Of a stretch of DNA of 64,000 nt, positions 1 through 64,000 are shown piece by piece (positions within the stretch are counted from its first letter, which is position 1; the number at the start of each line of letters is the position of its first letter). Origin of the DNA: Limosilactobacillus reuteri (GTDB taxonomy: Bacteria > Bacillota > Bacilli > Lactobacillales > Lactobacillaceae); assembly GCF_013694365.1 (NCBI RefSeq), contig NZ_CP059275.1:1736001-1800000 (forward strand), given 5' to 3'. Both the position numbers and the translations under genes were made by a program. A model generated the notes under the pieces. It ran no database searches, had not been told where the DNA came from, and was given only the letters and a program-made list of their open reading frames with translations.

Positions 1-186
1 ATTTTGAATGCTAATAAAGAATTATCAGCGAATGAACTTATTAACCACGTTTGGGATGAGAATGAAACCGCTGATCAAGAAGATCTCTGGATTAATATCT
101 GTTATTTACGGCAAAAATTACAGGCAATTCAATCTCAAGTAACAATTAGTGGTGAAAAAACTGGACCGTTTATGATTGCATGCTAG
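1..186 (+). CDS. Response regulator, C-terminal DNA-binding end (5' partial)
   Basis: The reading frame is open from the first base, so this is the tail of a longer gene. The residues resemble the winged-helix output domain of OmpR/PhoB-type response regulators: an ELSANELINHVW stretch, then a recognition-helix-like WINICYLRQKL, then the short wing ending GPFMI. The receiver domain lies outside the window. The next gene is a sensor histidine kinase, so the two probably form one two-component system; this pair is in normal order. The TTG at base 4 is unlikely to be the real start. The regulated genes cannot be told from the sequence. Confidence 0.75.
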   Translation: MLNANKELSANELINHVWDENETADQEDLWINICYLRQKLQAIQSQVTISGEKTGPFMIAC

Positions 187-1434
187 ATGATTCAACGTTT
201 TCGCTATAAATTTATTGCAATCTCAACTGCGGCATTATTATTTGTAATTTTGACAATTGTTGGCAGTATTTGCACCCTCACTTACTATCAATCGCACCAA
301 GAAATTGAACGGGTATTGACGATTTTGGTAAATAACGACGGCCAAATTCCCCGAAAAGGGATCCGGACTACTGACAATAGTCAACCTCAATTTTCACGTG
401 AGGGCCTTCATCAATATCGTTATTTTGCTGTACTGGTTGATAATAAAAATCAAGTAACGGAAGTGCAAGATGATCATATTGCAACGGTTACGCCGCAGGA
501 TGCCCGAGCAATGACAGACCGTCTTGTAAGAAGAAAAGTGCATAGCGGGCAGTTGCTATATCGAGGGGTAAATTATGCTTATAAGATTCGGAATAAAAAC
601 GGCGAGAAAGTAATTGTCTTTCTTGATGAATCACTCCTCATGGCCCGGACACGATCACTAATGCATACAGGGTTGATCTTAGGGATAATTGTTTTAGTTC
701 TGTATACCATTGTTTTAACCCTTTACTCGCGTCGTGCAATTCGGCCAATTATTGAAGCAGAGCAGCGGCAAAAAGAATTTATAACTAATGCTAGTCATGA
801 ATTAAAAACGCCATTGACAGTTATTTCAGCGAATAATGAAATGCAAGAGATTATCAATGGTGAGAATGAATGGACAACAAGCACCAAGCAACAGGTTACT
901 CGCCTGACAAAGTTAATTAATAACCTGGTGTCACTTGCACGCATGCAAGAACAACCGACATTAACGATGTTGCCGGTAAATGTAAGTCAAATTGCCGGGG
1001 ATGTGGCTAGTAGTTTCAAGAGTGTGATTTCAACCGAACAGAAACAATTCAATGTACAGATTGATGAAGGCTTGGTAGCAAACGCTGATGAAAATACACT
1101 ACGGGAACTGTTGAATATTTTGCTTGATAATGCGAATAAGTATTGTGATCCTCAGGGTGAAATTGATTTTACAGTGTCCTCGTCTAATCATAGTAAAAAT
1201 ATAGTTATTACGATTGCGAATAGCTATAAAGATGGTAAAAGCCTGGATGCTAAAAAATTCTTTAACCGCTTTTATCGGGTTGATGAATCGCATACTCAAG
1301 GAAAAAAGGCAGGCTTTGGTATTGGGCTTTCGATGGCTCAATATATCGTTAAACAATTCAAAGGGAAAATTACGGCGAAGTATACAAATGGTAAGTTAGC
1401 TTTTATCGTAACGTTAAAAGAAGTAGGAAAGTAA
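187..1434 (+). CDS. Membrane sensor histidine kinase
   Basis: 415 residues, typical of a small HPK. A membrane segment lies at about residues 9-33 and a second at about 160-181, with a roughly 125-residue extracellular sensor between them. The H-box ASHELKTPL gives phospho-acceptor His204. The ATPase has an N-box (LLDNANK, 312-318) and a G-box (GFGIGLSMA, from 376). It should autophosphorylate and pass the phosphate to the response regulator whose tail precedes it. The signal is unknown. No obvious HAMP domain is seen; the link between the second membrane segment and the H-box is short. Confidence 0.9.
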   Translation: MIQRFRYKFIAISTAALLFVILTIVGSICTLTYYQSHQEIERVLTILVNNDGQIPRKGIRTTDNSQPQFSREGLHQYRYFAVLVDNKNQVTEVQDDHIATVTPQDARAMTDRLVRRKVHSGQLLYRGVNYAYKIRNKNGEKVIVFLDESLLMARTRSLMHTGLILGIIVLVLYTIVLTLYSRRAIRPIIEAEQRQKEFITNASHELKTPLTVISANNEMQEIINGENEWTTSTKQQVTRLTKLINNLVSLARMQEQPTLTMLPVNVSQIAGDVASSFKSVISTEQKQFNVQIDEGLVANADENTLRELLNILLDNANKYCDPQGEIDFTVSSSNHSKNIVITIANSYKDGKSLDAKKFFNRFYRVDESHTQGKKAGFGIGLSMAQYIVKQFKGKITAKYTNGKLAFIVTLKEVGK

Positions 1435-3957: not shown

Positions 3958-4686
3958 ATGCATCCACGAATTGCTATTCCTGCAGATACATTAACTGAAG
4001 CTACAAACATCATTAACGAGCGAAATGCTGCCTTCGCACCTCGCCCATTAATCGAAGCCATTATCAAGTCAGGAGGATTACCCGTTATTCTTCCTAGTGT
4101 TGCTGCTTCACTAGCACCATCCTACCTTGATCTTTTTGATGGGATTATCTTTGCTGGAGGAAGTGATGTCGATCCAACCTTTTTCAACGAAGAGCCGCAT
4201 CAAAAATTAGGTCCCACATATCTTAAACGAGATCAATTTGAAATTAGTCTTGCTACAGCTGCATTTAATGCTGGAAAACCAATGATGGGGATCTGTCGTG
4301 GAATGCAGGTATTAAATGTTGCGCTTGGCGGGACTTTATACCAAGACCTTTCGGAAAATCCCCATCAAACCCTTAAGCATTCCCAAGATGCCCCAGGAAA
4401 TTTTCCTTCCCACCACGTTAATACAGACAAGGCAAGTCGATTATTTAACTTAGTAGGACCCAGACCATATGTTAATTCACGTCATCATCAATCACTAAAT
4501 CAGATTGCTGAACCACTTCATGTAACGGCATGGGCTGATGATCAGGTACCAGAAGCCGTGGAAACCATTAACTCTGATCAAATTTTAGCAGTTCAATGGC
4601 ATCCAGAAAACATGTTTAAACATTACGATTATTCGCGCGCTATTTTTGCTGACTTAATTACTAGAGCGAAAAAAGCGGCTAAATAA
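3958..4686 (+). CDS. Class I glutamine amidotransferase-like hydrolase (peptidase C26, PuuD-like)
   Basis: 242 residues. The nucleophile elbow GICRGMQVLN gives Cys113, and QWHPE supplies His215 and Glu217, completing the Cys-His-Glu triad. An oxyanion-type stretch FAGGSDVDP is near residue 65. This family hydrolyses gamma-glutamyl bonds, for example gamma-glutamyl-GABA in putrescine breakdown. It lies beside a gamma-glutamylcysteine ligase, so a role in gamma-glutamyl compound turnover is an attractive inference, but adjacency is unreliable in this window. Substrate unknown. Confidence 0.85.
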   Translation: MHPRIAIPADTLTEATNIINERNAAFAPRPLIEAIIKSGGLPVILPSVAASLAPSYLDLFDGIIFAGGSDVDPTFFNEEPHQKLGPTYLKRDQFEISLATAAFNAGKPMMGICRGMQVLNVALGGTLYQDLSENPHQTLKHSQDAPGNFPSHHVNTDKASRLFNLVGPRPYVNSRHHQSLNQIAEPLHVTAWADDQVPEAVETINSDQILAVQWHPENMFKHYDYSRAIFADLITRAKKAAK

Positions 4687-7341: not shown

Positions 7342-7839
7342 ATGGAATCTACTTTTCGGTTACGCCGCTCAATTATTGCCGCAATGTTATTAGCATTAAC
7401 TCTTGTCCTCGGCCGCTTCTTTCTTATCCCTATTCCATGGACACATGGTAACGTCAACTTATGTGATGCTGGTGTATTCATTGCTGCCATGCTTTTAGGA
7501 CCAGGAGCAGGGACAATTGTTGGTGGCTTTGGCGGAATGTTCCTTGACCTTATTTCCGGCTTCCCCCAAGATGCCTTATTTTCCTTTGCCGCTCATGGTT
7601 TAGAAGGATTTATCAGTGGCTGGATTTATAAAAAATATGGCAACACCACCTGGGGCAAATGGACCGCAATCTTGGTCGGAACAATCGTAATGATTGCAAT
7701 CTACTTTATCTGCAATACCGTTATGTACCATGTAATTACTGGTTTTTTAAGTTTAGGTTCAAACTTTATCCAAGGAATGATCGGTGGAATAGTGGCGTTA
7801 ATTGTTATTAGGCAATTGAAGAAGCATCACGTTGGATAA
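7342..7839 (+). CDS. ECF transporter substrate-binding S component
   Basis: 165 residues with five or six membrane segments and a positively charged N-terminus (FRLRRSI). The LGRFFLIPIPWTHGNVNL stretch and GPGAGTIVGGFGGMFLDL match vitamin-binding S components of group II energy-coupling factor transporters. The S component captures a vitamin or metal and docks on the shared EcfAA'T module, which is not in the window. The substrate cannot be assigned from motifs I can recognise. Confidence 0.8.
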   Translation: MESTFRLRRSIIAAMLLALTLVLGRFFLIPIPWTHGNVNLCDAGVFIAAMLLGPGAGTIVGGFGGMFLDLISGFPQDALFSFAAHGLEGFISGWIYKKYGNTTWGKWTAILVGTIVMIAIYFICNTVMYHVITGFLSLGSNFIQGMIGGIVALIVIRQLKKHHVG

Positions 7840-9189: not shown

Positions 9190-9260
9190 GAGGCTGGGAA
9201 AAAACTCTCAGTCCAAAATGAAAGCCGGACGATGAATCAAATCTTGGTTCATCGTCCGGC
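9188..9260 (+). terminator. AAGAGGCTGGGAA motif followed by a 17-bp hairpin
   Basis: Bases 9224-9240 and 9244-9260 pair over 17 bp (one G-T pair) with a 3-base loop; the stem begins GCCGGACGATGAA. An A-run precedes it and a short T-rich stretch follows, so it can end transcription of the NADH oxidase gene. The 13 bases AAGAGGCTGGGAA just upstream (9188-9200) occur again, inverted, at 23643-23655 beside another long hairpin. This is one of the few non-coding pieces kept in the window. Confidence 0.7.
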
Positions 9261-9309
9261 TTCTTATGTACACAGGAAATCGTTCCTGATATGATGTAAT
9301 TACCCCTAA

Positions 9310-9474
9310 AAACAAACTAATAGAAAACTGGAACAACTCGGACTTATGAATATGTCCAAGACGCTCCAGTCAATTCAATGTGATTAAGTTGTCGAACCGC
9401 CGTATACGGAACCGTACGTACGGTGGTGTGAGAGGTCGATAATCGAACTAATCAATTATCTCCTACTCGATTTT
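9310..9474 (+). mobile_element. Group II intron 3' remnant (domains V and VI)
   Basis: Bases 9395-9428 read as domain V: ACCGCCGTA pairs with TACGGTGGT, separated by a short upper stem and a two-base bulge, followed by GTGAGAGGTC. Domain VI follows (GATAAT pairing with ATTATC at about 9438-9460) and the sequence ends CCTACTCGATT, a familiar 3' end for introns of this group in lactobacilli and enterococci. No reverse-transcriptase/maturase gene is present, and only about 165 bases at the 3' side are kept, so this copy could splice or move only with help, if at all. Confidence 0.75.
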
Positions 9475-9477
9475 CAA

Positions 9478-10002: not shown

Positions 10003-10446
10003 ATGGAAAATGAAGATTTGCTGAAAATAGAAAAAAGCTTGTTTAGTGATACCTCAAAGTATCGTGATATTATCAACACCCCTCGGCATGTTTCTCAAGC
10101 TCATACGCCAATGACCACCGAAGATCGCGCTGCTCAGTTTTCTCCTTTTGCGGCCTTGACCGGCTACCATCAATTATTAGCAAAGGTAGGGGAAAAGTAT
10201 GGTCATAAGACTTATCCCACAGCTGAGATGAGGCATCGAATTAGAGTCCAACTTGCCATGATTGAACGGGGCCGATCACATCCGTTAATAAAAGTTGAAT
10301 TCTTTAATGGTAAGACAGGTTTTTATGAAGAATACACGGGAAAATTAAAACGAATTGATTACCATGCTCATCACCTAATATTTGATGACGGAACAAGGCT
10401 TATAATTCAAAATATTCGTAAAATTAAAAGAGATCAGTTTTGCTGA
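10003..10446 (+). CDS. YolD-like protein
   Basis: 147 residues. The motif MTTEDRAAQFSPFAALTGY (residues about 37-55) is characteristic of YolD-like proteins, small partners usually encoded next to Y-family DNA polymerases. The C-terminal half is a beta-rich domain (IKVEFFNGKTGFYEEYTGKL). The polymerase gene follows directly, so the two likely act in SOS translesion synthesis. The biochemical role of YolD proteins is not well defined. Confidence 0.75.
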   Translation: MENEDLLKIEKSLFSDTSKYRDIINTPRHVSQAHTPMTTEDRAAQFSPFAALTGYHQLLAKVGEKYGHKTYPTAEMRHRIRVQLAMIERGRSHPLIKVEFFNGKTGFYEEYTGKLKRIDYHAHHLIFDDGTRLIIQNIRKIKRDQFC

Positions 10447-11949
10447 ATGATGGGGCGAACATATATGGCAATCGATTTAAAATCATTCTATGCCTCGGTC
10501 GAATGTACTGAGTGTGGGCTAGATCCCTTAAACGCTAACCTCGTAGTTGCCGATGAATCGCGAACTAGTAAGACTATTTGTCTCGCCGTTTCACCAGCTT
10601 TGAAAAATTTTGGTGTTTCTGGTCGCCCGCGATTGTATGAGGTGGAACAACGAGTAGCATACTTGAATAATCGTCGTGCCAAAGAAATGTCTCACCAGCG
10701 ATTATCACCAGTTGTTTCAATTTACCGGGATGAACTATTAAAATCACCGGAACTTAAAATTGGTTATAGGATTGCGCGCCCACGAATGAATTTTTATCTT
10801 GAAAAAAGTGCCGCCATCTATGAAATTTATTTACGCTATTTACCACCAGAAAAGATCCACGTTTATTCTATTGATGAGGTAATGATGGATATTACTGATT
10901 ATCTTAATAAGTACCATGTTAGCGCCCGTTCTTTAGCTAAGGAAATCATCCAAACAATTAAAGCAGAGACACAAATTACTGCAACTGCAGGAATTGGGAC
11001 CAATCTTTTCTTAGCGAAAGTAGCGATGGATATAGTAGCTAAACGGATTCCAGGGGATGAAGACGGGGTCCGGATTGCACAGATGAATGAACATACTTTT
11101 CGCCGTTGCCTTTGGGCGCACCAGCCACTAACAGACTTTTGGCGAATTGGTCCTGGGTATGCGCGACGACTAAAAAAGCTAGGTCTTCATACAATGGGAG
11201 ATATTGCTCGTTGTTCTTTGGGAAAGTTATCTGATCCAATGAATGAAGAAGTATTATACCGCGAATTTGGAAAAAATGCGGAAATCATTATTGACCATGC
11301 GTGGGGATATGAGTCAGCCACCATTAAAGATATCAAAAATTATCATTCATCAGATCATGGGGTGTATTCTGGGCAGGTGTTGCCTCGACCTTATAACTTT
11401 ACAGAAACCCGGTTAGTGATTCAAGAGATGGTTAATTCATTAGCTCTCCAGTTAACCAAGCAAAACTTAGTAACTGATCAAGTAGCTTTAAGGGTCGCCT
11501 ATGATGTTTCTAATATATCGGAGGATTACCAAGGACCATTAGTGACAGACTTCTATGGACGCCAGGCGCCAAAGCCAATGCATGGAAAAGCTAATCTTTC
11601 CTTACCGACTTCATCTGGTACAGAATTGATGGAGGCATTTATGAAGTTATGTGATTCTGGCCTTGACCGGCGATTGACAGCTCGTAAAATTACGGTAATA
11701 GCGAACCACCTTCTCTCACCACGGCTTGCCAGATTGGCGAATTATAATGAGCAGTTAGATTTATTTACGGACTCAACGAAAAAACATAAGAATCGTTCCA
11801 AAGTTCAAGAAAAGGATCAAAAACTACAAAGACTTGTCCTTGATTTGCAAAATGAGTACGGTAAAAATGCCATTATTCGAGCGGCGGATTTGAAAAAAGG
11901 TGCTACTCTTTTGGAAAGAAATAATCAGATTGGAGGGCACCAAGCATAA
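10447..11949 (+). CDS. Y-family DNA polymerase (UmuC/ImpB type)
   Basis: 500 residues. The first catalytic Asp is Asp10 in YMAIDLKSFYASVEC, with the steric residues FYASVE. The second acidic pair is Asp143-Glu144 in YSIDEVMMD. A helix-hairpin-helix region (FWRIGPGYARRLKKLG) and a little-finger domain follow. It copies damaged DNA with low fidelity. The near-C-terminal YNEQLDLF resembles the beta-clamp-binding QLxLF consensus. The start could be Met1 or Met2, or Met7 just before the active site; the extra residues are not conserved enough to decide. Confidence 0.9.
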   Translation: MMGRTYMAIDLKSFYASVECTECGLDPLNANLVVADESRTSKTICLAVSPALKNFGVSGRPRLYEVEQRVAYLNNRRAKEMSHQRLSPVVSIYRDELLKSPELKIGYRIARPRMNFYLEKSAAIYEIYLRYLPPEKIHVYSIDEVMMDITDYLNKYHVSARSLAKEIIQTIKAETQITATAGIGTNLFLAKVAMDIVAKRIPGDEDGVRIAQMNEHTFRRCLWAHQPLTDFWRIGPGYARRLKKLGLHTMGDIARCSLGKLSDPMNEEVLYREFGKNAEIIIDHAWGYESATIKDIKNYHSSDHGVYSGQVLPRPYNFTETRLVIQEMVNSLALQLTKQNLVTDQVALRVAYDVSNISEDYQGPLVTDFYGRQAPKPMHGKANLSLPTSSGTELMEAFMKLCDSGLDRRLTARKITVIANHLLSPRLARLANYNEQLDLFTDSTKKHKNRSKVQEKDQKLQRLVLDLQNEYGKNAIIRAADLKKGATLLERNNQIGGHQA

Positions 11950-13230: not shown

Positions 13231-14529
13231 ATGATTGAAAAAGATTTATCTGTAGACTTTTTAGGCGTTCATTTTGAAAATCCATTTTGCTTGTCGTCCT
13301 CACCTGTTGGGAACTGTTACGAAATGTGTAAGAATGCATATGACGCTGGTTGGGGCGGTATCGTATATAAGACTTTATCACCAACACACTTTAAGATTGA
13401 TGAAGTTTCTCCTCGGTTCGACGAATTAGCCAAGGAAGACATGCATTTTGTTGCCTTTAAGAATATGGAACAATTATCAGAACACCCCTTGGAGCAGGAC
13501 TTGGCTGATATGCGACGGTTAAAAGAGGAATATCCCAATAAAGTCTTGATTGCTTCAATTATGGGTGAGACATTGGAAGATTGGACCAACCTGGCTAAGT
13601 TAGTAACTGAGGCAGGGGCTGATATGATTGAATTAAACTTCTCTTGTCCACAGATGACTTCTCATACCATGGGTTCAGATGTGGGAACTAATCCAGAATT
13701 ATGTAAGAAGAATTGTGAAGCCGTTAAACGCGGGACTAGCCTTCCAGTTCTTGCGAAGATGACACCAAATATTACGACGATGGTTCCGATTGTTAAGGCA
13801 TGTCTAGAAGGAGGGGCAGATGGCTTCTCCGCAATCAATACTGTTAAATCAATTGTTGATGTTGATCTGAAGAAGAAAGTTGGTTTACCAAATATTGATG
13901 GTAAATCTTCTGTTTCTGGATTATCTGGGAAAGCTGTTAAGCCAATTGCTTTACGTTTCTTACAACAATTACGGTCAGCAGCCGGCCTTGAACAACTACC
14001 GATTTCTGGAATTGGGGGAATTGAAACCTGGGAAGATGCTGCTGAATTTATTCTTTTGGGTGCCACTACTCTCCAAGTTACAACTGCGATCATGGAATAT
14101 GGTTATCGGATCATTGATGACCTTACTAATGGTTTAATGCATTACATGGAAGAACAGCATGTAGACCACCTTCAAGATCTTGTCGGCTTAGCTAATAAGA
14201 ATATTATTCCTACTAATCAGCTTGACCGAAATTACAAGGTTTACCCTAAGATTGATTGGGATAAGTGTATCGGTTGTGGACGTTGCTTTATCTCATGTCA
14301 AGATGGTGCTCACCAAGCATTAACTTGGGATGATGAAAAACGGCAACCAGTTTTTGATAAGAGTAAGTGTGTCGGTTGTCAACTGTGTGCACTTGTTTGT
14401 CCTGTGGGGGCTATTAAGTTAGGCCTTGTTGAGATTAAGCCGGGCCACAAAGGTAATCCAGCAGAAATCGATGTAGGATCTCAACGTCTTCATCGCTATC
14501 ACCCGGTAAAGGCTAATCAAGAAAATTAA
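13231..14529 (+). CDS. preA: NAD-dependent dihydropyrimidine dehydrogenase subunit PreA
   Basis: 432 residues. The N-terminal part is an FMN-binding dihydroorotate-dehydrogenase-like barrel ([34 protein letters not shown]). The C-terminus carries two 4Fe-4S clusters: Cys346, 349, 352 and 356, and Cys380, 383, 386 and 390. With PreT it reduces uracil or thymine to the dihydropyrimidine, or runs in reverse. PreT is the following gene here, but its last 8 bases (15752-15759) equal the first 8 of this gene and carry an AGGAGG at proper distance, so the real order is preT then preA. Confidence 0.9.
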
Positions 14530-15759
14530 ATGACTTCAAAGTATGAAACAGAGTCGAAAGGTTACACGATGACAACCGTAATGCAGGAAGCTGCACGATG
14601 TTTATTATGTCATGATGCACCATGTTCACAAGCTTGCCCAGCACATACTAATCCAGCAAAATTTATTCGAAGTGTTCTTTTTCGTAATGTCAAAGGGGCA
14701 GCTGAAACGATTCGGGAAAACAATGCGTTAGGATCAATCTGTGCGCGTGTTTGTCCAACTGAACGTTACTGTGAAAAAGCATGTACCCGGGCTAAAATCG
14801 ACGGACCAATTGATATCGGTGGGATTCAACGGTATGTCACTGATATGGAGCGAAAGATGAATATGAAGATTCTTAAAACTGGTAAGCCAAACGGGATGAG
14901 TATTGCCATCATTGGTAGTGGCCCATCAGGTTTACAGGCAGCCACGACTCTTCGTGAAAAGGGCTATGCAGTTGATATCTATGAAAAAGCTGCTAAGGCT
15001 GGCGGTTACTTGACCTACGGCATTCCTGAATATCGGTTGCCGGAAGAAATTGTGGATTATGAAGTTCAACGAATTGTCGACCTTGGTGCGCACATTATCT
15101 ATAACACAACTGTCGGAAAAGATATTTCAATGGATGACCTTAAAGCTCGTTACAATGCAGTAATTGTTGCTATTGGGACAAGTGAAGCAAAGATGCTTCC
15201 AATGTTTGAACACAATATCTGTACTGAATCAGCAATCTCATTCCTAGCCCGGGCAAAAGAAAGTAAGGGTAATTTAGAAGATCTTCCGCAAAATGTCCTT
15301 GTTATTGGTGGTGGGGATGTTGTAACAACCTTAAAGAAGCTTAATGTTCCTTATGTTACCGATGTTGTTTATGAGCAGTTTGATGAATTCAAAGCTTCTA
15401 AAAAGGAACTTGCCGGTGCTCAAGAAGCTGGTGTAACAATTGTTGATGGTTACGTTCCAAAAGAAGTTCATCAGAATCGTGCTACCTTTACTCACCGGAA
15501 GATTAAGAGTGAATTAACTATTACTGCTGATAAGATTATTTTAGCAGTTGGTCAAAAAGCGAATGCAGAAGGACTAGACATTGACTTACAGCATAATGAA
15601 ATTCCATTCCGTGAACCACGATTCCGGACAAAAGATCCCAAAGTTTTTGCGACTGGTGATATTGTTGCCGGAGATAAAACCGTTGTGGTAGCAGTACAGA
15701 AAGGAAAAGAAGTAGCAGAAGAAATAGACCGGTTGTTAGGAGGACAAGAAAATGATTGA
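14530..15759 (+). CDS. preT: NAD-dependent dihydropyrimidine dehydrogenase subunit PreT
   Basis: 409 residues, GltD-like. An N-terminal Fe-S region holds Cys24, 27, 32 and 36, followed by ICARVCPTERYCEKACTR. Next come an FAD site (IIGSGPSGLQAA), an NAD(P)H site (VLVIGGGDVVTT) and the final FAD contact (VFATGDIVAGDKTVVVAVQKG). It passes electrons from NADH to PreA. Met14 (MTTVMQEAARC) is a possible alternative start. The gene tail contains the ribosome-binding site and start of preA. Confidence 0.88.
   Translation: MTSKYETESKGYTMTTVMQEAARCLLCHDAPCSQACPAHTNPAKFIRSVLFRNVKGAAETIRENNALGSICARVCPTERYCEKACTRAKIDGPIDIGGIQRYVTDMERKMNMKILKTGKPNGMSIAIIGSGPSGLQAATTLREKGYAVDIYEKAAKAGGYLTYGIPEYRLPEEIVDYEVQRIVDLGAHIIYNTTVGKDISMDDLKARYNAVIVAIGTSEAKMLPMFEHNICTESAISFLARAKESKGNLEDLPQNVLVIGGGDVVTTLKKLNVPYVTDVVYEQFDEFKASKKELAGAQEAGVTIVDGYVPKEVHQNRATFTHRKIKSELTITADKIILAVGQKANAEGLDIDLQHNEIPFREPRFRTKDPKVFATGDIVAGDKTVVVAVQKGKEVAEEIDRLLGGQEND
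15738..15759 (+). promoter_or_regulatory. Ribosome-binding site and buried preA start in the preT tail
   Basis: AGGAGG at 15738-15743 is followed after 8 bases by ATGATTGA (15752-15759), which contains the preT stop and equals the first 8 bases of preA at 13231. In the native genome preT and preA would overlap by these 8 bases and be translationally coupled. The preA gene does not follow here, so the signal now points at nothing. Confidence 0.85.
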
Positions 15760-41451: not shown

Positions 41452-42960
41452 ATGACTGTTTATAATTTTAACCAAGGAATCGGCTGGGCCAGCAGCGGGG
41501 TCGAATACGCCCAGGCTTACCGAGCCCAAGTCTTCCATCACTTAGGGGTGGATGCAAAATTTATCTTTACTGATTTTATTTCGGCCCAAAATATTGAGCA
41601 CTATACCGCCAACCTGGGCTTTAAAGATGAAGAAGTCATCTGGCTCTACCAAGCCTTTAGTGACTTTAAAATTGCGCCGACGACCTACACTTTGGCCGAT
41701 TTAACCGCGACCTTTGCCGAGCAACCAACGAAAGTGGAACGCCAAGGCAACGTGGTGACGTACATCTTTAATGATCAATACTACGTGCGGGTCATTTTAC
41801 GGCGCGCTGGCAGCGAGCAAGTCCTGCGGGCCGAATACGTCCGTAGTGGCAACCTCTTTCACCGGGATTTCTTTAGCTACGGGCGCTACATGAGCGAATA
41901 CTACGCCCCAATTGATGGCAAGGCCAAACTAATAGTGCGCCGCTTCTTTAATGAGGACGGCTCCGTGGCGATGGAAGAATTGCCGACTGGTGATAACGCG
42001 ACTTTCCGTTTGCCGGGCCAGCTGTTATTGTCTAAGGAAGAATTGATCACCGCCTTTTTGGAACGGCTGGCGTTTCAAAAGGGGGATGTGATCATTGTCG
42101 ACCGGGGCACCGGGATGGCTCAACAAATCTTAGCTCACAAGGGACCGGCCAAGGTCGGCAGCGTCGTGCACGCTGAGCACTTTAGCGTCAATAACACCAA
42201 TGATGATCATATCTTGTGGAACAACTACTACGAGTATGTCTTCCAGCACCACCGCGACATTGATTTCTACGTCACGTCCACCCAGGTCCAGACCGAGCTG
42301 TTGGCGGCCCAATTTGCCAAGTACAACCAGGCCCACCCGCAAATCTTTACGATTCCGGTCGGCAGTTTGCTGGAATTAAAGCACCCAACCACGCCGCGGC
42401 GGCCGTTTAGTCTGATCACGGCTTCGCGGTTGGCAGGGGAAAAACACCTCGATTGGGTAGTCCAAGCCGTGATGGCCGCCAAGGCCCAATTCCCGCAATT
42501 GACCCTTGATATTTATGGGGAAGGGGGCGAACGGGCCAAGTTGCAACAGCTGATTAAGGACGGGCAAGCGGAAGATTACATCCACTTAAAGGGACACCAG
42601 AACTTAACGGATGTTTATCAAGGCTACCAAGCCTACATTTCGGCTTCCACCAGTGAGGGCTTTGGGCTGACCTTGCTTGAAGCCGTGGGTTCCGGACTGG
42701 CGATGATTGGCTTTGACGTCCGCTATGGAAATCAGACCTTTATTCGCAACGACGAAAATGGTTATTTGATTCCGTACGAAATCGGCGAAACGGGCGAGCA
42801 AGCGATCCACGCTTTGACGACGACGTTAGCAGCCCTGTTTGCCAAATTAGACTTAGAACGGGCAGAACAAGTATCCTATGACTTGGCGGCGGACTACTTG
42901 GAACCAGAAATTGAGGCCAAGTGGGCCCAATTGTTGAAAGAGGTGCAAGCGGATGATTAA
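41452..42960 (+). CDS. gtfA: Accessory Sec O-GlcNAc transferase GtfA
   Basis: 502 residues. The N-terminus (YNFNQGIGWASSGVEYAQAYR) and the extended beta region are those of GtfA/Gtf1. The GT4 catalytic motif E-x7-E is Glu402 and Glu410 in SEGFGLTLLEAV. With GtfB it puts the first N-acetylglucosamine on Ser/Thr of the serine-rich-repeat protein in the cytosol. AAAGAGG at 42937-42943 lies 9 bases before the buried gtfB start. Confidence 0.92.
   Translation: MTVYNFNQGIGWASSGVEYAQAYRAQVFHHLGVDAKFIFTDFISAQNIEHYTANLGFKDEEVIWLYQAFSDFKIAPTTYTLADLTATFAEQPTKVERQGNVVTYIFNDQYYVRVILRRAGSEQVLRAEYVRSGNLFHRDFFSYGRYMSEYYAPIDGKAKLIVRRFFNEDGSVAMEELPTGDNATFRLPGQLLLSKEELITAFLERLAFQKGDVIIVDRGTGMAQQILAHKGPAKVGSVVHAEHFSVNNTNDDHILWNNYYEYVFQHHRDIDFYVTSTQVQTELLAAQFAKYNQAHPQIFTIPVGSLLELKHPTTPRRPFSLITASRLAGEKHLDWVVQAVMAAKAQFPQLTLDIYGEGGERAKLQQLIKDGQAEDYIHLKGHQNLTDVYQGYQAYISASTSEGFGLTLLEAVGSGLAMIGFDVRYGNQTFIRNDENGYLIPYEIGETGEQAIHALTTTLAALFAKLDLERAEQVSYDLAADYLEPEIEAKWAQLLKEVQADD
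42937..42960 (+). promoter_or_regulatory. Buried ribosome-binding site and gtfB start in the gtfA tail
   Basis: AAAGAGG, nine bases, then ATGATTAA, which is both the gtfA end and identical to the gtfB start at 40093. It indicates a native gtfA to gtfB order and translational coupling. The gene that now follows (42961) is not gtfB. Confidence 0.85.
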
Positions 42961-43149
42961 ATGAGCGAACATAATAAACACGATGATCCGCTGGCAAACG
43001 ATATTGCCAAGCGCCTAGCTAAAGAGCAATTCAAACCGACCAAGAATAAAAAGGAGAAATCCTTTGACCTCCAGCAAAAATTAATGCTGATCATTGCCCT
43101 GTCGGTAATCCTCGGGGTCGTGATGTCGGTGATGAGCCTCTTGCGCTAG
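42961..43149 (+). CDS. Small single-pass protein of the accessory Sec cluster (Asp4/SecE-like?)
   Basis: 62 residues. Residues 1-38 are highly charged, with an amphipathic stretch ANDIAKRLAKEQF. One membrane helix follows at about 40-61 (KLMLIIALSVILGVVMSVM). SecE and the streptococcal Asp4 share this layout of cytosolic amphipathic helix plus one membrane helix. It sits between secA2 and gtfA. I infer a small translocon subunit; no motif proves it. Confidence 0.5.
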   Translation: MSEHNKHDDPLANDIAKRLAKEQFKPTKNKKEKSFDLQQKLMLIIALSVILGVVMSVMSLLR

Positions 43150-45528: not shown

Positions 45529-46206
45529 ATGCAAAGTGTCTATCTTCAATCCCCAGCAGACCTTTACTTTAATGGTTTAAGTGGTAGTGATCGGGACCGA
45601 ATTTATCATTCGTATAAATACTTCGGCAGTTCTGTCCAATCGGGGACCCATGCCTACCTGTTTGGTACCCGGATCAAATTTTTAGCCCGGGACCATGTTG
45701 AAATGCGTAACCCCTTTTTGCCGACGGGTTCGACGATTTACCACTGGGATGAACTATACTTGTTTGTGACCAGTCATGCTGTGCCGCAGTTGCCTTTGCT
45801 AGAGCACGGTCACCATTATCAGTTGCATCTGGTAGCCGAAAGCAATTACGAGCGGGGATTGTATTTGCGGGTCTTGATGTTTGACTACGAAAATAAACTG
45901 ATCAAGATGAAGATTATTCGGGAGGCAACCGGGATCTTTACCTTCGAGCCAGCGGCCTACTTCTACGCGATTGAATTGGTCAGTGGAGGTTGTACGGAAC
46001 TGACCTTCCATCGCTTAGACATCACGGACGTAACCGATCAGGTGCAAGATCAAGTAGAAGCGGCGGCCGCGGAAGCCGAAGATGAAGTCGAAGATGCAAT
46101 TGTCAATGAAGACTTACACGCTGAAGTTAATTACCAGCAACAGCTGGCTCGTAACGCCACGCAAAAAGCGCAACGCTTGGCGGTCATTGATCAGTATTTG
46201 GACTGA
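45529..46206 (+). CDS. asp3: Accessory Sec protein Asp3
   Basis: 225 residues, a beta-rich first half (GSTIYHWDELYLFV; QLHLVAESNYERGLYLRVL) followed by an acidic coiled C-terminus (AAAEAEDEVEDAIVNEDLHAEV). Position and size fit Asp3, which binds Asp1 and Asp2 and delivers the adhesin to SecA2. Individual catalytic motifs are not expected. The stop TGA could overlap the native secA2 start by one base. Confidence 0.8.
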   Translation: MQSVYLQSPADLYFNGLSGSDRDRIYHSYKYFGSSVQSGTHAYLFGTRIKFLARDHVEMRNPFLPTGSTIYHWDELYLFVTSHAVPQLPLLEHGHHYQLHLVAESNYERGLYLRVLMFDYENKLIKMKIIREATGIFTFEPAAYFYAIELVSGGCTELTFHRLDITDVTDQVQDQVEAAAAEAEDEVEDAIVNEDLHAEVNYQQQLARNATQKAQRLAVIDQYLD

Positions 46207-47829
46207 ATGGAACACTATTTATTAATTGGGCCGACCGATTTAACGGCCACGTTGGCACCGGATAAGGAGCACCAGTGGCACTATGCCGCTCCGGGGGAAG
46301 TGGCGGCCCTGCTGGCTAAGTTGGCGCCAAAGCCGAAACAAAAAAAGAAGGCTCAGTCGGAACCAAGAAAAATCCAGCAACCTAAAATCAAGCCTAAGCC
46401 ACCATTGCGTAGCTTTGCGGGGGCTTATTTTGCGACGTGTCCGACTGATGAAGATTTGCGGGCCCTCTTTAAGTTTGTTGATAGTTACCGAGTGGCTTGT
46501 GCACCGGCTGTCTTGGCCGCGGCGACTACACCACTGGCCCAGGATTACTTTAAGGGCAAAGTTGTCCGGCCGCTCCAGTTGACGGCGTGGCCGCAGATCG
46601 TGGAATGGCTTCAGACCCGGCTCTTTGAGCATCAAGGAGGTGCGAAAGTCAACCCTTCAGCATTTGAACCAGCGCCAGGGTATCACGGAAGTTTAGAATT
46701 CAACGGGTTTGTGGCTGTAGAATTAGAAGCGGATTTTGGGGCTGATTTTCAATCAGTTGGCACCTACCGTTGGGGAGGCTATATCGACCCGGGCAAATTA
46801 CTAAAAGTTTGGCCAGAGTACTCCCACAGCGCTGGTGTGGCCCTGCGAATGGTAGTGTATGAGGCGCCACCGGGCGAACCCTACCGGTTTAAAAAGCGTT
46901 GGGTCTTTGATGAGGCACAAATGGTTGACCAAGTGCCAGTCCCAGAAGCGCCAGCAACAGGAACCCTGTGTGTGACCTTTGAAGCTAAGGGGCAGGGCTG
47001 GCTGTCACTGGGCAACGTCCATTTTCGATGGTCACGCCACGAAATGGGCGAATTCTTGCCGGGTGGGGGCCGGATTGTGGACCATGATCGCCGCGAAGTG
47101 AATTATTACTTTAATCCGGGTGATCTCAAGCCACCGCTGAACGTCTATTTTTCAGGTTACCGGACCGCTGAAGGCTTTGAAGCTTTTTACATGATGCGCT
47201 CGTTTGGTGCCCCCTTCTTACTCTTTGCGGATCCACGGCTTGAGGGGACGGGCTTTTATCTAGGCAGCTCAGAATTTGAAGCCCAAATTAGGGACCAAAT
47301 TAAACAAACCTTGGACTGGCTGGGCTTTGATCGGCATCAATTAAATACCTCAGGCCTTTCGGCGGGGACCTTTGGGGCCTTGTACTATGGTACCCAGCTG
47401 GGCGCGCATAGTATCATTATTGGGAAACCCTTGGCAAATTTGGGTGATGTCGCACAAAAAGAGCAATCAATTCGCTACGGGGGATTTCCCACTTCATTAG
47501 ATATCGTTAACTTGCACACGTCACGGGAAGTTCAACGGGCGGGACGTAAGGCGATCGTAAAGACGATGAATCAACGGTTCTGGCAGGCCTTTGATCAGGC
47601 GAATTTAGATGATACCCAGTTAATGTTGACTTACATGCACCAGGATGATTATGACGATAAGACCTATCACGACATGCTGGCACACTTGGCTGCGACGGAT
47701 AAACATCCCTATTTAATCAGTCGGGGGCTGAATGGGCACCACAATGATGGTAGTTATGAGACGGTCATCTGGTTTAAAAAGCAGTACCTGACGATGTTGG
47801 AACGGGATTTTAACCGGAGGAAAAATTAA
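46207..47829 (+). CDS. asp2: Accessory Sec protein Asp2 (carbohydrate acetyltransferase)
   Basis: 540 residues. The alpha/beta-hydrolase half contains the nucleophile elbow GLSAG (Ser385) and a C-terminal His511/His512 in NGHHNDGS, matching the Ser-Asp-His triad that lets Asp2 O-acetylate GlcNAc on serine-rich-repeat proteins. Residues about 40-65 are Lys/Pro/Gln-rich, an insertion I do not expect in streptococcal Asp2. GGAGG at 47816-47820 near its end would serve the native next gene, asp3. Confidence 0.85.
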   Translation: MEHYLLIGPTDLTATLAPDKEHQWHYAAPGEVAALLAKLAPKPKQKKKAQSEPRKIQQPKIKPKPPLRSFAGAYFATCPTDEDLRALFKFVDSYRVACAPAVLAAATTPLAQDYFKGKVVRPLQLTAWPQIVEWLQTRLFEHQGGAKVNPSAFEPAPGYHGSLEFNGFVAVELEADFGADFQSVGTYRWGGYIDPGKLLKVWPEYSHSAGVALRMVVYEAPPGEPYRFKKRWVFDEAQMVDQVPVPEAPATGTLCVTFEAKGQGWLSLGNVHFRWSRHEMGEFLPGGGRIVDHDRREVNYYFNPGDLKPPLNVYFSGYRTAEGFEAFYMMRSFGAPFLLFADPRLEGTGFYLGSSEFEAQIRDQIKQTLDWLGFDRHQLNTSGLSAGTFGALYYGTQLGAHSIIIGKPLANLGDVAQKEQSIRYGGFPTSLDIVNLHTSREVQRAGRKAIVKTMNQRFWQAFDQANLDDTQLMLTYMHQDDYDDKTYHDMLAHLAATDKHPYLISRGLNGHHNDGSYETVIWFKKQYLTMLERDFNRRKN

Positions 47830-49395
47830 ATGTATTATTTTTTACCCGCTTGGTACCGGGGCGATCAATCTTGGGACAGTCACGAGCAAGTCTGGTTCCA
47901 TCAGTCCCAGCACGGCTTTGATGATACGATCAATCAAGTCCGGATGTTTACCAGCAGCGGTCAGGCAGCGGCGCTATTAGTCCCCGTCTTTTTCCCCAAT
48001 TTACGGCATTTTGCCTACCAACAGGGGATTTATGAAGTGCCGCGTTTGTCGGTCTTTGATTACTTACAGGGGATTCCCGCCGATTTGCCGGTCGTGAACC
48101 TTGATTACCACGATTTTGCCTGGCCGGCGGATGCCAATTATGTCTACAATCCCTTTACCGTCACCGTCTTTAGTAAGGGGCAGCGCTATGCCCAAATTTC
48201 GATGGGCCCGGAAGGCAATCTGATCGTGATGGACCTCTTTAAAAACGATCAACGGTACCGCCAATTAGACTTTGACGACCGGGGGTTTGTTTCGCGGGTC
48301 AGTGAGTATAACGAACAGCAACAGTTGGTCCGTCAAGCCTACCTCGATCACTTGGGCAACGAACAGTTTTACGTGGCCGCCGATGGGCAGGTCCACATCG
48401 TCGGTGGGGTCCACTTGGCCCGCCATCAGGGCATTTACCCCGACCTGCGCAGCTTGATTACCGAGCAGTTTACCCAGTTTGTCCAAGAAAAAATCCAGCC
48501 AGCTGATCTGGTGGTCGCTGCGGCGGATCCTTTCCATGACCAAATGTTGGGAGAAGTGGTGCCCAACGAGCAGTTGGTACTGTCCTATTTTGGCGACCGG
48601 GCCGATTTGGCCACGGCCGCTGAGGCGGAATTGGCCCAGCGGGCAATTTTAACCATTGCCGATTCGAACCACAATCAACAGCGCTTAGAAGCGCTCGGGG
48701 CCCAGACCTTGCAATTGCCACCGCTCGACACCCGGTTGAGTTTAGGGATCAGCAACCAAGAGCGGTTATTGAAGATCATGCTTTTGATCGATGACCTGTC
48801 AACGGCGGCGTTACGATCCGCTTTGGCAATTATCATGACTACGATGAACGAAAATGATTTGATTGATTTAACCCTATTGACCTTCCAACCTTTCCAGCGC
48901 CAAGAAGAAATTGCGACTTTGGTTGCTGAATTGAATAATCAATTAGGGTTGCGGGATCAGTATACGTTCAATCAAATTGAAGCGGCAGAAGCGGAAAACC
49001 AGTTGGCGGATAACTTAGACGCAGCTCAGGAAACGGCCCGGGAGCGCGATATTCACCTGGTGACCGTTAATTCCGAACCCCAGCTGATTCAAGCGGTCCA
49101 CACGACCCGGCTGTTGATCGATCTGTCAGCACAACCGGATGTCTTCTTGCAAATTGCGGGGATCAGTGCCGGAATTCCGGAAATTTTACGGGCGGAGTCG
49201 CTTTACGTGGAAGATGGCAAGAACGGCCGCTTATTGCAAAACGTCACCACCGATTTGGCCCCGGCGATTCACTTTTACTTAGACGGGCTGAAAAATTGGA
49301 ATACCGCCCTGGTCCACGCGGCCAATAAGATTGCTGATTACACCAGCAGGCGGATCGTCAAGCGGCTCCAAGCCGCGATTAAAGAGGCGAGGTAA
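47830..49395 (+). CDS. asp1: Accessory Sec protein Asp1
   Basis: 521 residues beginning YYFLPAWYRGDQSWDSH, a typical Asp1 opening. The rest has a two-lobed GT-B-like fold without E-x7-E, as in Asp1, which binds GlcNAc-modified adhesin with Asp2 and Asp3. AAAGGAGG at the end of secY2 (50631-50638) is positioned for this gene, implying native order secY2 to asp1. Confidence 0.85.
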   Translation: MYYFLPAWYRGDQSWDSHEQVWFHQSQHGFDDTINQVRMFTSSGQAAALLVPVFFPNLRHFAYQQGIYEVPRLSVFDYLQGIPADLPVVNLDYHDFAWPADANYVYNPFTVTVFSKGQRYAQISMGPEGNLIVMDLFKNDQRYRQLDFDDRGFVSRVSEYNEQQQLVRQAYLDHLGNEQFYVAADGQVHIVGGVHLARHQGIYPDLRSLITEQFTQFVQEKIQPADLVVAAADPFHDQMLGEVVPNEQLVLSYFGDRADLATAAEAELAQRAILTIADSNHNQQRLEALGAQTLQLPPLDTRLSLGISNQERLLKIMLLIDDLSTAALRSALAIIMTTMNENDLIDLTLLTFQPFQRQEEIATLVAELNNQLGLRDQYTFNQIEAAEAENQLADNLDAAQETARERDIHLVTVNSEPQLIQAVHTTRLLIDLSAQPDVFLQIAGISAGIPEILRAESLYVEDGKNGRLLQNVTTDLAPAIHFYLDGLKNWNTALVHAANKIADYTSRRIVKRLQAAIKEAR

Positions 49396-50643
49396 GTGCA
49401 CGCTTGGCAAAAATGGAAATTCAACCACCCGGTTTTTCATAAGGCTTGTTGGTCGGTTTTACTTGTATTCATCTTTCTCTTGGGAAAGTCAATTCCGCTC
49501 CCGTATACGGACGCCAAATCATTGGTGATTGAAAATGCTGGCCTGCACTTCGCCAGTGTGGCGACCGGGGGGGATTTAACCCGGCTATCGCTGTTTAGTC
49601 TAGGAATTTCGCCCTGGATGTCGGCGATGATTATTTCAAATTTGCTGACCCAAGCTCGCGGTTTTGGCCTGGACCGGCTGTCGGAAAAGCGCAAGGATTG
49701 GATCTCCAAAGAGATTACCCTCCTCTTGACGCTTTTGCAGGGCTTCGTGGTGATCAGTTCAATGCAACTGACGACGCCAGGCTGGGCCGCCAAGGGGGCG
49801 GTGCTTTTAACCTTGACGGCGGGAACGATGTTTACGGTCTGGCTTTCGAATACCAACGCCCAGTTTGGGATTGGCGGGCTCACGCTACTGGTCTTAGTCA
49901 ACATGCTGCAAATTGCGATGAAGACCGGCCTGGCCGCAATTCTGACCTTAGCGGGGTATTCCGAAGTTAGGCTGGTCCTGATTATCGCGGCACTGGTCGT
50001 GGGGCTGGTCCTTTTTGCGGCCTTAAATGTTTTAACGGACCGGGGCGAATACCGCTTGCCCGTCGTACGATTACTGATTGACAATCGCTATGCGTCACGT
50101 TCCTATCTGCCAATTAAGCTGAACCCCGGCGGGGGGATGCCAGTGATGTTTGCGATGGCGATTGTGACCCTGCCAACTTATTTTTGCATGTTTTTCCTGA
50201 CCTTTTTCCCGCAAAACCATTGGCTGATGTGGGGGGCAACCAGCCTGAGTCTGACGAAGCTCCCGGGGATTGTTCTCTACATCAGCATGCTCTTTTTGCT
50301 CTCCATCGCCTTTGCCTTGGTGAACGTCAATGCGGAACAACAAGCTAAAGCCTTCCAACGGGCTGGCGACTACCTACTGGGAGTACGGCCCGGCAAAGCA
50401 ACCGAACGGCGGATTAACCAGTTGGCGTTGATTTTTGGCTTCGTCGGGGGCTTGTACAACGGAATTTTTGCCGGCCTGCCGATGCTGATGATTGTCAGTC
50501 ACCCGCACCAATTAGGGGTGTACATGCTGCCCGGATATGTTTTGATGATTGTCGGGTTTTCAATGGGGATGATCGATCAGATCAATATTTTGTCAATCCG
50601 CAAGCGTTATCGGCCACTATTTGACCACGCAAAGGAGGCATAA
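49396..50643 (+). CDS. secY2: Accessory translocon channel SecY2
   Basis: 415 residues, GTG start, ten membrane segments. LGISPWMSAMIISNLL in the second segment and IPLPYTDAKS match SecY/SecY2. Compared with SecY1 the cytosolic loops are short. It forms the membrane pore for the glycosylated adhesin. The tail carries AAAGGAGG, a ribosome-binding site for asp1. Confidence 0.9.
   Translation: MHAWQKWKFNHPVFHKACWSVLLVFIFLLGKSIPLPYTDAKSLVIENAGLHFASVATGGDLTRLSLFSLGISPWMSAMIISNLLTQARGFGLDRLSEKRKDWISKEITLLLTLLQGFVVISSMQLTTPGWAAKGAVLLTLTAGTMFTVWLSNTNAQFGIGGLTLLVLVNMLQIAMKTGLAAILTLAGYSEVRLVLIIAALVVGLVLFAALNVLTDRGEYRLPVVRLLIDNRYASRSYLPIKLNPGGGMPVMFAMAIVTLPTYFCMFFLTFFPQNHWLMWGATSLSLTKLPGIVLYISMLFLLSIAFALVNVNAEQQAKAFQRAGDYLLGVRPGKATERRINQLALIFGFVGGLYNGIFAGLPMLMIVSHPHQLGVYMLPGYVLMIVGFSMGMIDQINILSIRKRYRPLFDHAKEA
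50631..50643 (+). promoter_or_regulatory. Ribosome-binding site in the secY2 tail
   Basis: AAAGGAGG (50631-50638) directly before the secY2 stop. In native order it would be close to the asp1 start; here an IS30 fragment follows, which has no need of it. It supports reversal of gene order in this cluster. Confidence 0.75.
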
Positions 50644-51072: not shown

Positions 51073-51322
51073 GTTAGTGTGATTAATCTTTTTATCATGT
51101 TCAACGTGCTTTTGAATGCCAGAATAACCGTTCTTATCCTTGGCTTGTAAGTCAGTTGTTACCGTGCATTTAATCGACATATTATCATCACCCATATCGA
51201 TGGGTGATGATAATATGTCGATTAAATGCACGGTAACAACTGACTTACAAGCCAAGGATAAGAACGGTTATTCTGGCATTCAAAAGCACGTTGAACATGA
51301 TAAAAAGATTAATCACACTAAC
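51073..51322. repeat. Perfect 123-bp arm palindrome (4-base spacer)
   Basis: Bases 51073-51195 and 51200-51322 are exact reverse complements, separated by ATCG. Each arm equals the first 123 bases (41 codons) of the relaxase gene at 59852. The left arm with the spacer (127 bases, 51073-51199) recurs exactly at 61970-62096. Such a large perfect palindrome is hard to maintain in bacteria, so joining of two copies of a repeated contig end is more likely than a natural cruciform. Confidence 0.9.
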
Positions 51323-61969: not shown

Positions 61970-62096
61970 GTTAGTGTGATTAATCTTTTTATCATGTTCA
62001 ACGTGCTTTTGAATGCCAGAATAACCGTTCTTATCCTTGGCTTGTAAGTCAGTTGTTACCGTGCATTTAATCGACATATTATCATCACCCATATCG
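61970..62096 (-). repeat. Inverted copy of the relaxase 5' end (127 bases)
   Basis: Identical to 51073-51199 over 127 bases; its reverse complement is the first 123 bases of the relaxase gene plus CGAT before the ATG. On the minus strand it reads as the natural start of a relaxase gene, with 62097-62358 as its upstream region. The exact 127-base size matches a common assembler k-mer, hinting at a shared contig edge. Confidence 0.85.
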
Positions 62097-62220
62097 TTGG
62101 CTAATAGTCGTAACCTCTGCTTGAAGGTTCGTTCAGAATCGGTAGGGTAAGTATGCGATGTTTCCAGAATCTCCCACTTCAAGCATTAAACCGTAGGTTT
62201 AGCTAAGTGGGAGTAGTTCA
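62097..62220 (+). mobile_element. IS200/IS605-type right end with candidate guide-RNA scaffold
   Basis: CTCCCACTT (62171-62179) pairs with AAGTGGGAG (62205-62213); inside, TAAACC (62187-62192) pairs with GGTTTA (62196-62201). The upstream GGTAGGGTAAGTATGCGATG run and the ending AGTAGTTCA are familiar from tnpB-type elements of lactobacilli, where this part of the element is transcribed as the omega (guide) RNA. The tnpB gene itself is missing. On this strand the element end points toward 62220. Confidence 0.55.
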
Positions 62221-62358
62221 ATATAATTGTTAAGATATCGTGGAAATCAACCACAAGGCTCGAGGCTAAGTCCGAACGATAATCAGCCCGTGCCGTGCTA
62301 ATTACCATTCTATCCTTAGCCCACCGCCTTGTCGAGGAGGTTAATTCCCACTTACTTT
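62221..62358 (-). other. Interrupted minus-strand reading frame flanking the IS end; imperfect inverted repeat
   Basis: On the minus strand a frame is open from about 62356 to 62189 (WAKDRMVISTARADYRS then LASSLVVDFHDILTII) and runs into the IS end, so it may be a gene cut by the insertion. The same bases form pairs CAAGGC/GCCTTG and GGCTAAG/CTTAGCC (about 62261-62332). I cannot name the protein. GAGGAGG just before 62341 is too far from the hydrolase ATG at 62359 to be its usual ribosome-binding site. Confidence 0.35.
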
Positions 62359-63321
62359 ATGGCAAAACGTAAAATGATTCTTGATTTAGATACTGGTGTT
62401 GATGACGCTTTAGCTATTGCCTATGCGCTCGCTGACCCAGAAGTTGATCTAATCGGAATTGTAAGTTCATATGGTAACAACCTATTAGATGTTTGTGCCG
62501 AAAACAGCCTTAAGTTATTGGAATTATTAGGTCACACTGATATTCCAGTATTTAAGGGTCTTCCACATTCATGCACTACTGACCACTTTGATGTAATGCA
62601 AGTTTCAAAGGATATCCACGGTGATAACGGTATCGGTGATGTTGAATTACCTGCGCCAAGTCGGGCTCTTGAAGAACAATCCGGTGTTGATTTCTACATC
62701 GAAGCCGCTCACAAGTATGGCAAGGACTTAATCATCATCCCTACTGGTCCAATGACTAACTTAGCTGCTGCTTTGAAGAAGGATCCTGAAATTGCTGACT
62801 TGATTGGTAATGTCACATTCATGGGTGGTGCCTTAACTGTTGAAGGTAATGTTACTCCTGTCGCAGAAGCTAACATTAACCAAGACCCAAAGGCTGCCGA
62901 TGAAGTAATGAAGTCCAATTTGCCACTTACGATGGTTGGTCTTGATGTTACTCTTCGTACTCTTCTTACTAAGAACGAAACAAAGCAATGGCGTGAATTA
63001 GGCACTGCTTCCGGTAAGGCTTTTGCTGATATTACCGACTTCTACATCGACGCTTACTACAACCTTGATATTGATAAGCGTGGTTGTGCCCTCCACGATC
63101 CATTAGCTGTTGGTGTTGGTATTGACCCATCATTTGTTTCAACTATTAGCTTATTCATGAAGGTTGTTTACCAAGAAGGACCTTACTATGGTCGGACAAT
63201 CGGTGACAACGCTAAGTTAAACGATCCTAACCCTAATGTTAAGGTTGCCGTTAACGTTGACAAAGAACGTTACCTCAAGGCCTTCATGGACCGCCTAAAC
63301 AAGCTTTTCAAAGAAAATTAA
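62359..63321 (+). CDS. Nucleoside hydrolase
   Basis: 320 residues from ATG at 62359. The calcium-binding signature DLDTGVDD (Asp11, Asp15, Asp16) and the later LHDPLAVGVG are those of inosine-uridine preferring hydrolases, with MGGALTVEGNVTPVAEANI forming the ribose-binding loop. It splits nucleosides to base and ribose for salvage. An upstream TTG at 62329 would add ten residues (SRRLIPTYF) unlike the family, so I reject it. Confidence 0.92.
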   Translation: MAKRKMILDLDTGVDDALAIAYALADPEVDLIGIVSSYGNNLLDVCAENSLKLLELLGHTDIPVFKGLPHSCTTDHFDVMQVSKDIHGDNGIGDVELPAPSRALEEQSGVDFYIEAAHKYGKDLIIIPTGPMTNLAAALKKDPEIADLIGNVTFMGGALTVEGNVTPVAEANINQDPKAADEVMKSNLPLTMVGLDVTLRTLLTKNETKQWRELGTASGKAFADITDFYIDAYYNLDIDKRGCALHDPLAVGVGIDPSFVSTISLFMKVVYQEGPYYGRTIGDNAKLNDPNPNVKVAVNVDKERYLKAFMDRLNKLFKEN

Positions 63322-64000
63322 ATGGCAGAGAAAATTTACGATGTGACAATTATTGGTGGAGGTCCAGCGGGGATGTTTGCTTCATTTTATTGCGGCCTTC
63401 ATGAATTAGATGCCCAGCTAATTGAAAGCCTTCCACAACTTGGCGGACAAGTAGGGGCACTCTATCCTGAAAAACAAGTTTGGGATGTAGCGGGAATGCC
63501 AGGTGTAACTGGACATGACCTAATTGCTAAGCTAGAAGAGCAAATGGCAGTGGCACCGATTGACCAATTCCTCGGTGAAACTGTTGAGGACGTCATTAAA
63601 AAAGACGATGGAACCTTTACCATCAAATCAGCAAAGCGGGTATCCCGGTCACGAGCAGTAATCATTGCTCTTGGTAACGGGGCGTTTACTCCGCGTAAGC
63701 TTGCTTTAGAGGGAGCAGCTGAGATTGAAGGCAAGCAGCTTTCATATTTTGTTAATCATAAAGCTGATTATGCGGACAAGCGGGTTGCCATTCTTGGTGG
63801 GGGCGACTCCGCGATTGATATTGCCTTGATGCTTGAACCCGTTGTTAAGGAAGTCCACCTTGTCCATCGGCGGGACCAGTTCCGCGGTCTGGAGCATACT
63901 GTAACTCAGCTTAAACAGTCATCTGTACAACTGGATACGCCTTTCTTACCACGCGCATTAACGGTGGAAGACGATGAAACGGTAACGCTTGATCTTAAGA
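63322..64000 (+). CDS. Ferredoxin/flavodoxin-NADP reductase type 2 (3' cut by window end)
   Basis: The first 226 codons are present. It has an FAD site (IIGGGPAGMFASFY), then GGQVGALYPEK, which marks YumC-type reductases rather than thioredoxin reductase because the CxxC pair is missing, and an NADPH site (VAILGGGDSAIDIA) with HRRDQFRG. It moves electrons between NADPH and ferredoxin or flavodoxin. It continues past base 64000. Confidence 0.9.
   Translation, partial: MAEKIYDVTIIGGGPAGMFASFYCGLHELDAQLIESLPQLGGQVGALYPEKQVWDVAGMPGVTGHDLIAKLEEQMAVAPIDQFLGETVEDVIKKDDGTFTIKSAKRVSRSRAVIIALGNGAFTPRKLALEGAAEIEGKQLSYFVNHKADYADKRVAILGGGDSAIDIALMLEPVVKEVHLVHRRDQFRGLEHTVTQLKQSSVQLDTPFLPRALTVEDDETVTLDLK

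Follow-up and report, generated by a model that had tools for sequence, protein, structure and literature searches.

The window analyzed here is a 64-kb stretch (bases 1,736,001-1,800,000) of a Limosilactobacillus reuteri-like record that consists of one contig of 2,085,667 bases and is listed as 100 complete and 0.96 contaminated. A piece-to-piece walk revealed that the window is tiled without gaps by abutting pieces (Table 1), with coding sequences (CDS) accounting for 61,491 of its 64,000 bases and CDS-to-CDS contacts for 66 of its 80 junctions. Tiling boundaries near 51200, 59852, and 62359 were placed by hand from repeats, and the exact piece boundary at 59848-59852 is uncertain by 3 bases. 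Even the short frames at 27517-27651, 32149-32265, and 52367-52525 and a start-less piece at 50917-51072 fill their spaces exactly, as the original prediction for this DNA had claimed.

Table 1. Features of the 64-kb window, with strands as written in the window unless marked otherwise.
Feature	Position in window	Strand	Observation
Whole window	1..64000	+	81 abutting pieces: 72 CDS, 2 frames lacking a start, 1 frame left open at the window end, 6 non-coding fillers
Peptidase C26 family gene	3958..4686	+ (native minus)	Native flanking spacers 123-1012 bp (G004, G006)
ECF riboflavin transporter S component gene	7342..7839	+ (native minus)	Native spacers 52 and 268 bp
Filler	9190..9477		127-bp piece (9190-9316) present in two further exact copies in the record, then a repeat ending in a group II intron match
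Two-gene minus-strand operon, reversed order	10003..11949	+	Native 1-bp overlap; Shine-Dalgarno sequence of the first window gene lies at the end of the second
Two-gene operon, reversed order	13231..15759	+	Native 8-bp overlap ATGATTGA present twice, at the start of 13231 and the end of 15759
Filler	23398..23655		One repeat piece of about 131 bp and another of about 127 bp
Filler, 172-bp intergenic repeat	33403..33574		Recurs over at least 100 bp at 19 other places in the record; some 30 matches in L. agrestis
Filler	36407..36660		Two 127-bp pieces (36407-36533, 36534-36660), each with exact 127-bp copies elsewhere
Accessory Sec cluster	40093..50643	+	GtfA-like glycosyltransferase, SecA, Asp2, Asp1, SecY
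Filler, 127 bp by set boundaries	51073..51199		Inverted start of the replication gene at 59852, extended upstream by a few bases; pLRI04 9971-9845, 100%
cat match	52526-53176		pLRI04/pTE15
erm(B) match	53177-53923		pLRI04/pTE15
tet(W) match	55613-57538		First 1913 of 1926 bases; pLRI04/pTE15
Plasmid piece	57539-58585	minus on pLRI04	pLRI04 15730-14684, 100% match
Plasmid piece	58586-58906	plus on pLRI04	pLRI04 13748-14068, 100% match
Plasmid piece	58907-59725	plus on pLRI04	pLRI04 12930-13748, 100% match
Plasmid piece	59726-59848	minus on pLRI04	pLRI04 12230-12108, 100% match
Plasmid piece (replication gene at 59852)	59852-61969	plus on pLRI04	pLRI04 9849-11966, 100% match
Filler	61970..62358		Roughly 127 bp inverted from the start of the gene at 59852, followed by other repeats (about 129 bp and 133 bp)

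The analysis of six-frame open reading frames (ORFs) in the window reveals that, among plus-strand ORFs of at least 150 amino acids, an ATG, GTG, or TTG directly follows the stop codon in 47 of 52, and in 55 of 60 when the threshold is lowered to at least 100 amino acids, while a single minus-strand ORF of at least 150 amino acids is present. The identical script, applied to both strands of native DNA, found 25 of 480 ORFs directly before a start codon (G006, 8/106; G004, 3/22; G003, 2/13; G008, 6/167; 11 named Limosilactobacillus loci, 6/172), and the predicted prevalence of zero-length stop-start junctions, mostly on the plus strand, is thus confirmed. This observation was extended to 29 other 20-kb stretches of the record, where the next start is touched by 368 of 425 plus-strand ORFs and 1 of 11 minus-strand ORFs. 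The spacer-free abutting that characterizes a file of concatenated features was found in the window and, at a level of at least 75% zero junctions, in 25 of these 29 stretches, with the four exceptions all lying beyond 1,990 kb.

When overlapping genes are cut out singly, the bases that they share are written twice, and such doubling is widespread in the record. Among 453 neighboring CDS pairs, drawn from the window and the first 20 other stretches, the end of the first gene recurs as the start of the second over at least 8 nt in 11 pairs (forward doubles) and the end of the second recurs as the start of the first in 23 (reverse doubles), the latter being expected because minus-strand operons are turned over. 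Shuffling of partners gave a mean of 0.2 and a maximum of 2 in 200 trials, against the 34 observed, and the doubled overlaps claimed by the original prediction are therefore real. At a threshold of at least 4 bases, 24 forward and 40 reverse doubles were counted, where shuffling gave 11 on average and 17 at most, and the longest doubled overlap spans 47 nt. The 8-bp double at 13231/15759 corresponds to a native overlap of 8 bp in L. balticus, so that here, too, the bases of overlapping features appear twice, as in a concatenated feature file. Inverted doubles, which arise from overlaps between opposite strands, were found at 36407, at 51073-51199, and in the first part of 61970-62358. In 644 kb of the record, inverted 24-mers separated by less than 600 bp group into 64 clusters, 40 of which fall in its final two stretches, versus 4 in 716 kb of native DNA.

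These observations were further examined by placing the pieces on native DNA, namely stretches from L. balticus BG-AF3-A and L. agrestis WF-MT5-A together with L. reuteri plasmids, with a match over at least 60% of the piece required and the ends then extended to the full piece. In L. balticus, 43 of the 81 pieces were placed, yielding 35 neighboring pairs on one stretch, 34 of them no more than 3 kb apart (a pair separated by 4 kb was excluded). Zero spacing was found in 0 of these 34 pairs: 32 are separated by spacers of 2 to 552 bp and 2 overlap, and both members lie on the plus strand in 6 pairs, both on the minus strand in 14, and on mixed strands in 14. Placement of 40 pieces in L. agrestis gave 31 pairs, 30 of them within 3 kb (one pair 6 kb apart was excluded), with zero spacing in 0 of 30, one overlap, and both members on plus in 5. 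At least one gene thus lies natively on the opposite strand in 28/34 pairs in L. balticus and 25/30 in L. agrestis, and each feature is written in the window on its coding strand regardless of its native strand, again as in a concatenated feature file. Two junctions absent from the data of these two species were found in the collection genomes G004 and G006, each spaced and mixed-strand. The contigs of both relatives resemble the window in their gene neighbors, at 75-99% identity, but differ from it in their spacers, few overlaps, and mixed strands. The original prediction had held that genes would match native genomes while junctions would not, and the comparison with close relatives and L. 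reuteri plasmids bore this out: pieces match native DNA at 71-100%, whereas the junctions compared, all of them outside 38.9-51 kb, find no match, and both spacers and minus-strand orientation return.

The most direct comparison is offered by plasmid pLRI04 of L. reuteri I5007 (NC_021504.1), which is 100% identical to five adjacent window pieces at 57539-61969. These pieces stand in descending order on pLRI04, where their spacings are 615, -1, 699, and 141 bp and three of them lie on the strand opposite to the other two. Despite otherwise identical DNA, 0 of the 4 window junctions are kept in the plasmid, which, unlike the window, has spacers and a 1-bp overlap and uses both strands. The resistance genes alongside (52526-57538) are plasmid-borne and match the L. 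reuteri plasmids pLRI04 and pTE15 at 98.9-99.9%, each plasmid carrying just part of the cat/erm(B)/tet(W) set. A prophage at 40-62 kb was considered and rejected, the region being made up of accessory Sec genes and plasmid pieces; the 15 phage records with a match are confined to positions 52,525-57,525 of the window, mostly the resistance genes.

The signals that normally surround genes are disturbed in the same DNA. Across the 36 genes with a start codon that could be placed in L. balticus, a Shine-Dalgarno match of at least 5 nt precedes the start in 2 window genes versus 28 of the same genes in L. balticus, while random 20-mers of the window gave an average of 2.3 of 36 and a maximum of 8. 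Over all window CDS, 10 of 72 starts have such a match, and the absence of ribosome-binding sites before most starts had been correctly foreseen. It had also been proposed that these sites appear at the ends of genes whose true partner lies on the other side, and of 16 gene ends bearing a Shine-Dalgarno match in the window, 8 (11949, 15759, 42960, 47829, 49395, 50643, 52366, and 59725) were judged by eye to suit the start of the window gene before, whereas the other 8 show no fit or may be due to chance. The gene order behind four of the fitting ends (11949, 15759, 52366, and 59725) was seen in a native relative, and that behind 42960, 47829, 49395, and 50643 follows what we take to be the usual order of accessory Sec genes. 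Scans for promoters and terminators, made on 9478-23397 of the window and on its L. balticus counterpart, were not decisive, with 26 promoter-like sites in the window versus 36.5 after shuffling (L. balticus, 46 versus 47.7) and 7 terminators versus 9.9 (L. balticus, 11 versus 10.6). The two longest listed native terminator stems, of 14 and 13 pairs, are without counterpart in the window list, in which the longest has 9 pairs.

The accessory Sec cluster runs in the reverse of the order known in streptococci, and an 8-bp overlap, ATGATTAA, is doubled, with one copy opening at 40093 and the other ending at 42960. The conclusion that the cluster is written in reversed order rests on the streptococcal gene order and the doubled overlap, and it agrees with the reversed gene orders noted in the original prediction. 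In the nearest two named relatives, L. balticus and L. agrestis, nothing beyond short matches of about 64-81% was found for the cluster, and most of the DNA in the accessory Sec and plasmid parts likewise has only short, distant matches there. A search of viral contigs with the Asp2 protein gave no match.

The pieces extend beyond coding sequence, with tRNA, 16S, and repeat pieces joined in, as would be found where the non-coding features of an annotation are also written out. In the record, 81 tRNA matches were obtained (150 of 180 candidates scored), 77 of them on the plus strand, and each of the 4 minus-strand matches has an equal-score plus-strand match close by. Several of the tRNAs abut to the base, for example at 2016265-2016337, 2016338-2016410, and 2016411-2016483, and full 16S genes lie on plus in 3 of 3 cases, two of them with inverted partial 16S copies alongside. 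The view of the window as a string of excised coding sequences thus holds for the excision and fails for the restriction to coding DNA. A genuine genome of extreme compactness, one-stranded and free of spacers, would agree with the single contig and its listing as 100% complete, but we reject it and consider its probability practically nil in the face of doubled overlaps, absent Shine-Dalgarno sites, base-to-base tRNAs, and an identical plasmid with normal spacers. Rather, the 64-kb window is almost certainly an artifact and not natural DNA, in which annotated features were excised, set to one strand, and joined end to end; we found no evidence against this gluing, and the arrangement within the window carries no biological information.

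All six window fillers are repeats: the five that were searched in the record are pieces with 95-100% copies, and the sixth, at 51073-51199, turns up among the matches of another filler's record search. In the filler at 36407, the first ~40 bases are the inverted start of the preceding 41-aa frame. The 172-bp repeat at 33403-33574 is possibly a small mobile or regulatory element of the genus, and an intergenic repeat of about 133 bp (62226-62358) has many copies in L. balticus and L. agrestis. Annotation of the RAST type would call repeat regions of at least about 100 bp at about 95% identity, and the window fillers would fit such a rule.

The lengths of these repeats give an indication of where the pieces came from. 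Over 644 kb of the record, maximal exact repeats of at least 40 bp are commonest at 127 bp, with 122 pairs, in counts that are inflated by family copy number. The peak is broad (124 bp, 8 pairs; 125 bp, 61; 126 bp, 83; 128 bp, 61; 130 bp, 11), and repeats of 43 and 47 bp contribute 121 pairs each, both lengths being seen at lower numbers in native DNA. Maximal exact repeats of 127 bp are absent from about 500 kb of native DNA. Neighboring contigs of SPAdes-type assemblies share k bases at their ends, and exact repeats peaking at 127 bp are what an assembly of this type with k = 127 would leave. The use of SPAdes with k-mer sizes as large as 127 is documented (PMC6256058). The 127-bp repeats probably lie at contig ends, and the most likely source of the pieces is a single draft assembled from short reads and annotated with a repeat-listing tool.

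The original prediction of a gene-only or pangenome-type concatenation is upheld for the concatenation and not for the pangenome. Genes of several strains pooled and joined would look identical where they are one-stranded and spacer-free, and plasmid and chromosomal genes do stand side by side in the window; nevertheless, window neighbors adjoin in single native genomes (34/35 pairs in L. balticus and 30/31 in L. agrestis on one stretch), overlaps between neighbors are duplicated exactly, contamination is listed at 0.96, and 127-bp repeats are kept that a gene-family list would drop. We consequently reject the pangenome mixture as very improbable, and one genome is most likely the source.

We infer that one L. 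reuteri-like strain would have been assembled from short reads with k-mers of 127 in a SPAdes-like manner, and that the draft would then have been annotated, probably by a RAST-type annotator with a repeat-region caller, so that CDS, RNA genes, and repeat regions were listed. Each feature would have been exported on its own coding strand, presumably in contig order, and the pieces joined without spacers into the 2,085,667-bp "contig." Such a process would lose spacers, flip minus-strand genes in place, reverse minus-strand operons, and double overlaps, while the contig-end repeats would become short fillers. What we take to be the closest known counterpart is a multi-FASTA file of annotated features (CDS, RNA, and repeat regions) from RAST/PATRIC-type servers, which likewise holds features on their own strands, repeated overlaps, and RNA and repeat features; the record differs in that it has no headers and forms one sequence held as a genome. 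The analysis rests on the stored copy of the record, which leaves room for gluing by the data holder of the collection rather than by the depositor. This is nevertheless quite unlikely, since the collection genomes G003, G004, G006, and G008 and two others have normal spacers, and the fault therefore belongs to this record.

These findings bear directly on how the record can be used. Its proteins are usable as such, and gene neighborhood is usable only where it has been checked against native genomes, while strands, spacers, promoters, and operons are unusable. Analyses of operons, promoters, riboswitches, synteny, strand bias, or replication origin that are run on the record would give wrong results. 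Completeness and contamination checks do not flag it, and it is held among whole genomes with values of 100 and 0.96. It is conceivable, though we lean against it, that glued feature files posing as single-contig genomes are a type of error that has gone unseen in public genome sets; if so, marker-gene quality scores would rate such files as complete and clean while their spacers, promoters, operon order, and strands are false. The stop-start and doubled-overlap tests are cheap and could detect similar records. In a literature search, we recognized no paper naming this record or reporting such a record, a result that says little about print overall.

The tail of the record (1990001-2085667) departs from the pattern described above. 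Zero junctions in the four exceptional stretches amount to 4/11 at 1990-2010 kb, 5/10 at 2010-2030 kb, 1/17 at 2038-2058 kb, and 0/2 at 2066-2086 kb. Sequence repeated at 95% identity or more within the analyzed DNA of the record makes up 97% of the last 20 kb, 64% of 2038-2058 kb, and 33% of 2010-2030 kb, as compared with 3% of the window and 0% of one mid-record stretch. We read the tail as repeat and fragment pieces from small contigs, part of which could be unglued DNA. Group II intron pieces are present in many copies, at 9317-9477 of the window and in the tail of the record, where the intron 3' end and D1-D4 gave Rfam matches.
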